This document shows positions 24,774 to 28,476 of a stretch of DNA of 64,000 bases, piece after piece. The DNA lies in contig CM049309.1 in NCBI GenBank assembly GCA_026874595.1, forward strand, positions 93,704,723 through 93,768,722. Reading direction: 5' to 3'. The notes under the pieces are model-generated. The model was not told the DNA's origin. It searched no databases and worked only from the letters and a program-made list of their open reading frames with translations. Within the stretch, counting starts at the first letter, position 1; each line of letters begins with the position of its first letter. The translations under genes and the position numbers were made by a program. This DNA comes from Sipunculus nudus. Lineage: Eukaryota; Annelida; Sipuncula; Golfingiida; Sipunculidae.

Positions 24774-26935
24774 TAATATAAATCATATTTTTTCAAAATG
24801 TAACACGCCACCGGGCTTATTTTACGCATAAAATCGTTGTTATCCGTCGTTTGAAGGCCCTGTTGTTATAAATATTGTCCCTGTTTTGCTACTTGGCTTT
24901 AGAATAAATATATGTAATTTCAATTTCCTCAGGTATTATAAAATATTTCCTAAAATACAGACACGTGACTATGTTCAAATCGAGATAAGGAGCGCTCTTT
25001 TTAAATAATTAATACATAACTTACCATAATGTTGTTTGTTTGCGGGGCTCCCATGCAGACTGCCACCGTATTGAGCTCATACCTATATATATGGCGCTTC
25101 TTCGCTTATACTCTAATGCCCTGGATTTTAAACTCGCCAGGACGTACCGCCGGAAATCATGAATTATTATTTAAAGCCCGAAATAATTTTTACCCAAATT
25201 CTTAATCAGGCACTGGCATGATTATAAACTTATTATAAAAGATCAAAACAGCCCACTTAAATCATAATGCCATGTGTTGTTTTCATAATATTTATATTCG
25301 ACGAAAACGTTCTCTGAGAGGCCTCCTGTCTCCCCTAAACAGTATTTAAAATAAATAAAAAACATATTTTTAGATCACTTGTGCTAACTGAATTAATGTT
25401 AGCTCTGTCTAAAAGTTAGCACCATGGACTAACAGGAAATACAGGAATAACGACTTTAACATTGCGATTTCCATTACATGCTATATGTAAAAATGGAGAA
25501 GCAAATAAAACATCATTTCTTTAAGTACCTTAATCACATTGAATTCTCGCTAATAACTCCAACCAGAGTCGCTCGAATCTCTATTTGTGTGTGTGTGTGT
25601 GTTTTTTTAAATGGACGAAACTGAGCACTTTGTATCAGTATATAATAGTGCTTTAGGTACTTGTACAGAGAGCATGTATCACTATAGAGGTGTAAAATGT
25701 ACTATTTCTTCCTATTTCCACCTATGAAAAAGGGATTGAGCGACTGCTCCATCAAAACCGCATAGCATAGATCGGTTGATAATTGGCTAATATAGGTATG
25801 AATCGCGGACGCGAAACTCACGATATATTGTTGGGTAAATTAAATAAAGATGGCGTTAGTGGAAATTTACGGAAGCGTATTGCTGCCACCTGGTAAAAGA
25901 AAAATAAATTATTTATCTCGTACGTACGACATAAAAAATCTTACGGATCTGATTCATAGACTAGACAACATGCCAACAGATATATGTATAAACAATATGT
26001 ATATATTAAATAATGTATGTTTTCACATTAACTATATATACAACATCTGCACCTCCTTGCAAACCGCTGGAATACCGTTGAAACCAACACACACACTCAC
26101 ATATATATATTTATTTATAGTATATATTTAAATGCTATTCGATTCACATTTTTGTGTGTGTCCAGGTTTCTGTAATATTTCAAGCAAGCGAAATATACAT
26201 CAAATTGTTGTCTGACAGTCATAAACAGAACTCTCATTTTAAGACAGGTGATAAAATAATATTAGCAGTATATGATGTTATAAGAGTGAGCCTGTCATAA
26301 TGTTAATAAGAAACAAATCTTGCCTTGGCCAAACTGAAACTACTTCTTGGAGAAAGAAGGGTTCAGACAAGAGGTTAAGCTCCCAAATAGCCTGATTTTA
26401 ACTAATTGAGAATGGATATTTATGGGGTAGGTTTCTAATATTCTAAACTGATCTTTCTAAGAACTAAATTTTTACATAGCGCATCGTGTAGTTGATCTTT
26501 TAAACCATTTAATGCATATACAGCCGTTGATGTGATTGGTGGGTAGCTGAACAGACAACAATCCATTTAATGGGGTACGTATAATTTTTATTTTGAACTA
26601 AATTATAAAAAAAATTAAAAACTATCACTCATGGAAGTGCGATTAGTCTGTGACAGAAGAATACGAAATTCTAAAATAAGCCTTTACCTCATATGTCAGG
26701 CTGAAGTGGTGGTAAAATCTACATCTCAGATATGTCTCATTTGCGGTATCTTGTATGTGGTACCAGTAACTCGCCCTTCTGTAAACGGCATGAAGTTCAA
26801 CTTATGGGATCAAGCACTTAGTTTCATAATATATGAATCATGAACCTCTCCTAATGGACATCTCTGTATTACAGAACCTCTGTAAGTGTCTGTTAAGTGT
26901 TTACATAAGAAGGCCGGGTGACCAGAGGAAAGATC

Positions 26936-27055
26936 TATATATATATATATATATATATATATATATATATATATATATATATATATATATATATATATAT
27001 ATATACAGAGAGAGAGAGAGAGAGAGAAAGAGAGAAAGCGAGAGAGAGAGCCTAT
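26936..27055. repeat. TA and GA microsatellites in the FB2 loop
   Basis: Uninterrupted (TA)n of about 34 units followed by (GA)n with interruptions. The 81- and 95-codon frames across it encode only YI and RE repeats and are not genes. Confidence 0.97.
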
Positions 27056-28283
27056 TGTATAGTAGAGAGTTTAAATGAAAAAAGGACCTATTTACATTTT
27101 ACATGCAAACAAGGTATTTTGAGTATACATGAAATACAATTTAGTCTCCTTAAACTATTACGGTATCTTTCAATATTTCGTTTGCTTTCTAATGTATACA
27201 AGTGAAAAAAAGCTTGCCCCGGGCGCGATCAATGAGGAAAAACAAACAGCGCTCACGCCACCTGGTGGCCGTAAAAATAAACTTCAAAAATCAAGGTTTT
27301 TCCATCTTTTCTGGGTGTTTTTTTCTTTCATGTTTCTTCTCTTTTTTTTTAAATTGTCGCGTGTGCTAGACTAAGATCTTGTTTCTGGTCACGCGGTCTT
27401 GTTATAGTAAACAGACAAAGGGGCACTGTGTTTACTCACACACAGAACCATAATAACGTATACAAAACCGGTAAACAGAGGATATTATGCCTGTGTATCG
27501 GCAATGATTTGCTGAACAACTTTCGTATTCAGCCAAAATGAGTAAATAACGTGAGACAAAACGCATATTATTACAAAAGAATATGAACCTTGAGTGTCAA
27601 TATAGAGGTGTCTGTAATACAGAGATGCCCGTAAGGAGAGGTTCATGATTCATATATTATAAACCAAGTGCTTGATCCCATCAGATGAACTTCGTGCCGT
27701 TTACAGAAGGGCGAGTGACACTGTGTGTTATGTCATAAATCTAGTTCTTATACAGATCAATTTTGGAATATAAGAAACCTACCCCACATATATCCATTCT
27801 CAATTACTTATAATCAGGCTATTTGTTAGTTGTACCTCTTGTCCGAACCCTTCCTTCTCCAAAAGGTAGATTCAATTTGGCAAAGGCAATATTTTATTCT
27901 TATTAATATTATGACAGGCTCATCATTATCATACACTGCTAACAGAATTTTATTACCTATTTAAAAACGAAAGTTCTGTATATGACTGGCAGTCAACGAT
28001 TTGATAAATTTCATTTCCTTGAAATATTTCCTAAACCTGGACACAAAGAAACCATGATAAATCGAATAGCATTTAAATTTATAGTATAAATAAATAAATA
28101 AATAAATACATATATATATATATAAACATAGATATTTTTTCGACAGTGTTCCGACGGTTTGCAAGGTGAGATGTTGTGTAGTTTGGGTACGAACGTGCAT
28201 AATTTAACATATATATATATTGCTTATACATATATCAGTTGGCCTGTTGTGTATTCTGTGAATCAGATGCGTAAGATTAATTA

Positions 28284-28428
28284 TGTCGTACGTACGAGAT
28301 AGTATGTCGTACGTACGAGATAGTATGTCGTCTGTACGAGATAATATGTCGTACGTACGAGATATTGTCGTACGTACGAGATACTATGTCGTACGTACGA
28401 GATACTATGTCGTACGTACGACATAATT
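28284..28428. repeat. 21-bp palindrome-bearing subterminal array in the right arm of FB2
   Basis: About seven units of atgtcgtacgtacgagatag-type sequence, each carrying the palindrome TCGTACGTACGA or a close variant. The left arm has only one such site (about 25917-25930). The array lies just inside the terminal 32 bp, where transposase-binding sites are commonly found. The minus-strand YVRHSIS/YYLVRTT frame is a translation of this repeat, not a protein gene. Confidence 0.9.
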
Positions 28429-28476
28429 AATTTTTTTTCTTTTACCAGGTGGCAGCAATACGTTTCCGTAGAAATT

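Follow-up and report, generated by a model that had tools for sequence, protein, structure and literature searches.

FB2, a foldback transposon family of Sipunculus nudus with ends that fit the IS3EU/GingerRoot signature

FB2 was confirmed as a large, real transposon family with dispersed copies in the genome of Sipunculus nudus. Judged from its structure and its termini, FB2 is probably a non-autonomous foldback DNA transposon moved in trans, most likely by a DDE transposase of the IS3EU/GingerRoot type, a reading that we hold with fairly good confidence.

The window copy and its empty sites

The stretch of DNA analysed, called here the window, is 64,000 nucleotides long and holds one non-coding copy of FB2 with GAAATT on either side (Table 1). 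The foldback structure, the 31/32-bp terminal inverted repeats (TIRs), the flanking GAAATT and the non-coding loop had all been claimed in a preliminary description of this DNA, and all were confirmed. The left (+) and right (−) TIRs are identical at 31/32 positions. The ends begin with TACGGAA, the longer terminus being TACGGAAGCG. Allowing 3 mismatches, the TIR matched twice in the window and never in 100 shuffles. No ORF of at least 150 aa was found within the window copy, and by its reading frames FB2 encodes no recognisable protein. The inverted arms of about 1 kb that had been described are present but imperfect, with 645 of 732 aligned columns identical (88%) and a further 465 gap columns.

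Two paralogous sites lacking the element, in units B and C, each contain a single uninterrupted GAAATT, as had been stated previously. When the flanks of FB2 were joined with one GAAATT, they aligned with both sites without any gap at the junction. These empty sites set the ends of the window copy independently of the picking of copies by their terminus.

Table 1: Features of the window copy of FB2 and its empty paralogous sites (positions in the window).
Feature	Position	Strand	Remarks
FB2 window copy	25868..28470		2,603 bp
Left target-site duplication GAAATT	25862..25867		single copy in two empty paralogous sites
Left TIR, TACGGAAGCGTATTGCTGCCACCTGGTAAAAG	25868..25899	+	family-wide terminal repeat reaches ~47 bp; 40 ends compared
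Single left 21-bp unit	25915..25935	+	palindrome TCGTACGTACGA at 25918
Left arm	25868..26884	+	inverted-repeat blocks; span approximate
Non-coding loop	26885..27600		TA and AG microsatellites 26936-27050; palindrome with CCACCTGGTGG near 27255
Right arm	27601..28470	-	inverted-repeat blocks; span approximate
Right tandem array, 7 copies of 21-bp unit	28282..28425	-	
Right TIR	28439..28470	-	1 mismatch to the left TIR
Right target-site duplication GAAATT	28471..28476		
Empty paralogous site, unit B, single GAAATT	33375..33380		gapless junction alignment; sequence AGTGGAAATTCGCATAGC
Empty paralogous site, unit C, single GAAATT	44545..44550		gapless junction alignment; sequence AGTGGAAATTTGCATAGC

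The host DNA that received the insertion resembles a decayed non-LTR retrotransposon: just 3′ of FB2 an open stretch reads, by eye, EVPQGKVLRPILFLLYLNNF...FADDTILY. The region is also tandemly duplicated: bases 1-6552 of the window are repeated at 33743-40300 with 99.88% identity and a spacing of 33.74 kb. A second FB2 is located at C4:93696852-93699450, 33,738 bp upstream of the window copy. Since it lies inside the tandem duplication, with the same flank and an identical first 233 bp, it is considered a duplicate of the window insertion, and it is most simply seen as part of a recent tandem duplication, not as an independent insertion.

Other features were recorded in the window. A 9-base core motif, which we take to be CTCF-like, had 21 matches against 1.85 expected under a first-order Markov model; these putative sites are found in both FB2 ends (25883 and 28455) and from 8417 to 61327, many of them within the tandem repeats at 48.9-61.3 kb. 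A 14-base CTCF-like motif (up to 2 mismatches) was not clearly enriched (6 against 4.1), and its best match was in the FB2 loop at 27255. At 62468-63404 there is a 56-bp minisatellite of 16.8 copies with 94% matches, overlapped by three long minus-strand frames.

FB2 copies across the genome

The assembly searched comprised 1.427 Gb in 153 contigs. With a 30-base pattern and up to 2 mismatches, 617 FB2 termini were detected (306 forward and 311 reverse), and the reversed pattern, used as control, gave 0 in either orientation. One hundred of the 617, on contigs C1-C7 and without mismatch, were listed. The FB2 sequences used were 20 stretches at listed termini, 10 short end pieces, and 8 and 30 further loci.

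Complete copies were paired from the 100 listed termini, from genome matches to the window copy, and from L025 and L045, giving a sample of 26 that was picked through the terminus itself and is biased to well-preserved ends. Excluded from the count were the tandem duplicate at C4:93696852, one end each in L058 (the outer one), L040 (a second right end) and L046 (the far one), and the single-ended loci of L001-L038 (several are ends of copies already counted; L025 was counted). Several copies, each with a 6-bp duplication, had been named in the preliminary description as what would confirm the element, and such copies were obtained. The duplication was exact in 22 of the 26; in three (L043, L049 and L057) the flanks agreed at 5 of 6 positions, and in the remaining one, L051, at 1 of 6, its right flank being another FB2 end (nested). 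None of the 26 had an exact flank repeat of 7 bp or longer, and when the flank pairs were shuffled a mean of 0.83/26 matched, as against the 22 exact in the true pairing. The duplications differ among the copies and have no fixed sequence. Outside the 26, L079 is a complete short FB2 of 1,097 bp with CCTAGT on both sides.

The anatomy of the ends was compared in 20 elements, 19 of them picked by their terminus and so not blind to it. All 40 ends start with TACGGAA, and the terminal repeat is conserved over about 47 bp, with TACGG..CCGTA at its extremes; as the copies were picked through the terminus, this conservation is no independent test. Inside each end there are 1-16 units of the 21-bp repeat with the palindrome TCGTACGTACGA, almost always 21 bp apart, and their number usually differs between the two sides of one element. 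The order at each end is thus the terminal repeat, the array of 21-bp units and a diverged inner arm. Long inverted arms, internal tandem repeats and a non-coding middle, the features of a foldback, are all present. In L054 the outer 233 bp are 95.7% identical between the ends and the inner segments (109-851 against 3241-2514) 75.9%. The arms have thus diverged on their inner side, and similarity has been kept at the outermost parts.

The length of FB2 is 119 bp in L025 and 425 bp in L057, commonly 2.1-3.5 kb and up to 9.9 kb in L042. L054 showed 94.6-98.7% identity with L039, L043 and L048, and 86-90% with the window copy. From this separation of the window copy (86-90%) from the others (95-98%), FB2 probably spread in older and younger waves. 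Other repeats are present in some of the longest copies: L058 includes a frame for a reverse transcriptase of LINE type (RVT_1), and L042 has a zf-RVT match just under the cut-off (27.3 against 27.5 bits). L039 carries about 3.7 kb of central DNA, mostly common to L043 and partly to L048, which is absent from L054 at a clean breakpoint (1880/1881). No gene was recognised in this central DNA: five frames from L039 and L043 gave no Pfam domain above the cut-off, and when six integrase-like proteins were compared with the 20 FB2 elements by tblastn, the best E was 1.1.

The probable transposase of FB2 and the alternatives

The termini and the 6-bp duplication had been thought to match none of the common superfamilies, a view that did not hold, for both fit the published IS3EU/GingerRoot signature (passages of PMC10045372 and PMC12730594). 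IS3EU and GingerRoot form one lineage, and both are named among the groups without the HHCC motif; in complete families of IS3EU the termini are invariably TA..TA and the target-site duplications (TSDs) usually 6 bp long, and GingerRoot families have 6-bp TSDs and mostly TA..TA ends (excerpts of PMC10045372). The IS3EU elements of rust fungi are described with 6-bp TSDs, TIRs longer than 30 bp and ends TAYGG..CCRTA (excerpt of PMC12730594). FB2 has the same TSD length (22 of 26 exact, three with 5 of 6 positions, one with none), TA..TA in 40 of 40 ends, a terminal repeat of about 47 bp and, in TACGG..CCGTA, extremes that fit TAYGG..CCRTA. It differs from these elements in its foldback arms with 21-bp tandem palindromes and in encoding no recognisable protein. 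On the fit of TSD length and termini its enzyme is most likely of the IS3EU/GingerRoot lineage.

The enzyme family is one that we infer, given that no autonomous element with FB2 ends was found, either with end patterns of an exact 22- or 16-base core or with integrase-type protein searches; an autonomous element between the same ends, suggested in the preliminary description, thus did not appear with these patterns. The patterns were meant to catch an FB2 end that continues into other DNA, and with exact cores and 100 of the 617 termini listed, a long or diverged autonomous copy may have been missed. The 22-base core gave six places, all FB2 variants by the matched letters. The 16-base core gave seven, of which five were fetched. 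L079 is the complete short FB2 described above; three others, L082, L083 and (to judge by its array) L080, are FB2-like but degenerate; and in L081 an FB2-type end leads into a microsatellite, where neither a second end within 2.1 kb nor an ORF longer than 86 aa was seen. From their letters, the two that were not fetched appear to be a small deletion and a nested end.

Genome-wide, 65 integrase-like frames were scored of 5100 candidates with the IS481 profile, and 127 of 4519 with the protein P0001. Thirteen places were read (L069-L072, L075-L077 and L084-L089) and labelled mostly by eye. By eye, L069, L072 and L077 are Gypsy, L071 is bacterial-type IS3, L075 and L076 are Polinton-like, and L070/P0001 and L089 are unclassified integrase-like. 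The Ginger1-type label of L084-L088 is partly by eye. In a Pfam scan of frames from P0001, L084 and L087-L089, P0001 matched rve, L084 matched Integrase_H2C2 above the cut-off and L087 just below it, and L089 matched rve above it; the frame scanned from L088 had no match. No FB2 ends were seen in L075-L077 or within 2.5 kb of L070/P0001 (C10), which lies inside a block of more than 5.4 kb common to C17. In L084-L089, where TA..TA ends accompanied by a 6-bp TSD were sought, no candidate was accepted; a weak TA..TA candidate at the same place in L084 and L085 (12/16, TSD 5/6) was rejected, since the shared sequence continues past it. The frames of P0001 and L089 have no clear HHCC (by eye), and L089 has no TA..TA ends with a 6-bp TSD. 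The FB2 partner may be lost, may share fewer than 16 bp with the FB2 ends, or may be among the 517 termini outside the listing.

Two of the places read have features of their own. In L089 an OTU-type protease-like frame (by eye) adjoins the integrase-like frame, and L089 and L070 appear to be unclassified mobile elements with integrase-like frames. Contig C118 (56,830 bp) carries L071 at C118:44000-45100, a bacterial-type IS3 transposase frame by eye; this contig possibly represents bacterial contamination.

The alternatives were weighed against the same features. FB2 could be a foldback of Mutator-like (MULE) type whose duplication is exceptionally short. The majority of foldbacks, though not all, seem to belong to Mutator according to the Tetris authors (passages of PMC4079207), and 6 bp would be possible for a MULE, IS256 and MuDR together covering 4-10 bp (excerpt of PMC10045372). 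We consider this unlikely: the TSD of FB2 is 6 bp in all 22 exact cases and never longer, in contrast to the Mutator-type 8-10 bp of Tetris, and the ends TACGG..CCGTA also argue against it. Tetris, from Drosophila virilis, resembles FB2 in having outer terminal, tandem-repeat and inner-arm domains with a variable non-coding middle, and differs in its TSD and in its TIR-220 repeats, where FB2 has 21-bp units (passages of PMC4079207). It is also improbable that FB2 is a foldback of an undescribed superfamily which shares TA..TA and the 6-bp TSD with IS3EU by chance. That no partner transposase was found would agree with such an origin, but TSD length, TA ends, TAYGG and a TIR longer than 30 bp all coincide with IS3EU as published (passages of PMC10045372 and PMC12730594).

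The duplication length also separates FB2 from the P superfamily, in which P elements have a TSD of about 8 bp (excerpt of PMC3706591). Galileo, a member of it, is like FB2 in its long, internally repetitive TIRs, and the tandem repeats in them hold further binding sites of the transposase domain (excerpt of PMC3688188); the approximately 8-bp TSD of P and Galileo is not that of FB2. Dada elements, with 6-7-bp TSDs, have no TIRs and insert in small-RNA genes (excerpt of PMC3706591). FB2 was rejected as Dada: it has TIRs, its duplications differ among copies, and no Rfam match reached the gathering score in the window.

A derivation from the Ginger1-type elements of this genome is very improbable. 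In favour of it, tandem palindromes occur in L084-L086 (TGCCCATTTCATGAAATGGGCA-like, near the ends) and in L088 (six GGTGGCGCCACC beside the gene); L087 has only two palindromes, different ones. Against it, GGTGGCGCCACC and TGCCCATTTCATGAAATGGGCA differ from the FB2 palindrome, which was not found in L086-L089, and L085, the single complete copy that was read, is bounded by TGTTACACCC ends and a 4-bp TSD, TATA, in AT-rich flanks, so that on this one copy the assignment fails both in TSD length and in the ends. A 4-bp TSD is the one given for Ginger1 (excerpt of PMC10045372).

That FB2 is a deletion element derived from a Polinton is scarcely credible. Polinton termini are AG..TC, as against the TA..TA of FB2. 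Polinton-like loci (L075 and L076, labelled by eye) do exist in the genome, and Polintons also have 6-bp TSDs (excerpt of PMC10045372). Finally, a chance inverted repeat or a segmental rearrangement, for which the tandem duplication of the region around FB2 might speak, is refuted by the empty sites and by the 6-bp TSDs of copies scattered through the genome.

Palindromic arrays, mobility and foldback evolution

Under the IS3EU/GingerRoot reading, FB2 would move by cut-and-paste: a transposase supplied in trans would recognise the ends, cut at TACGG and join the element to the target, and staggered target cuts 6 bp apart would give rise to the 6-bp duplication that is seen in the copies. The TCGTACGTACGA units may serve as repeated transposase-binding sites, by analogy with the tandem repeats of Galileo. 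Unequal exchange, both inside an end and from one end to another, plausibly accounts for the variation in array length.

The Ginger1-type loci bear on this proposal. L084-L088 are similar to FB2 in their palindromes, which lie close to the ends or next to the gene and are in tandem in L084-L086 and L088; they differ from it in being coding and, in L085, in the TGTTACA ends and the 4-bp TSD. The tandem palindromes in these loci give support to palindromic end arrays as a design, and the comparison of sequences suggests an end design common to FB2 and some Ginger1-type elements.

Repeats of this kind were also observed elsewhere in the window. At 48806-49980 there are 280-bp units with GGTGGCGCCACC, 82.6% identical over 1,189 bp to the sequence by the L088 gene, and this segment is probably part of a Ginger-type element. 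In 50273-61331, a further 12 GGTGGCGCCACC (up to 1 mismatch) are spread over 50659-61320, some of them within a 336-bp tandem array; these are possibly further Ginger-type ends or a derived satellite.

No foldback assigned to IS3EU was found in the literature searched, and the FB2 family may be catalogued in Repbase. Among the 15 of 369 papers listed, only PMC8268682 contains both foldback and IS3EU, its two mentions of IS3EU being rows of an annotation table. For the 21-bp unit the literature gave only a plasmid match, taken as unrelated. An IS3EU-type foldback looks like a new variant, foldbacks being mostly Mutator, with P among the exceptions. IS3EU is a little-studied integrase-like group and is not usually associated with foldback architecture. 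The wider picture is put forward tentatively, and as a whole we regard it as somewhat doubtful: FB2 would be the first IS3EU/GingerRoot foldback, palindrome arrays would be common to integrase-like transposons of this genome and act as landing pads for their transposases, and foldbacks would have arisen in a third independent superfamily beside Mutator and P.

Foldbacks have been linked to chromosome inversions and to satellite DNA; Mutator is the superfamily to which they are mostly assigned, and the exceptions include P-type elements (passages of PMC4079207 and the Galileo abstracts). A foldback family of this size whose ends are of the IS3EU type would demonstrate independent evolution of the architecture in an integrase-like lineage, and with FB2 the function of palindromic end arrays can be tested directly in DNA-binding assays.
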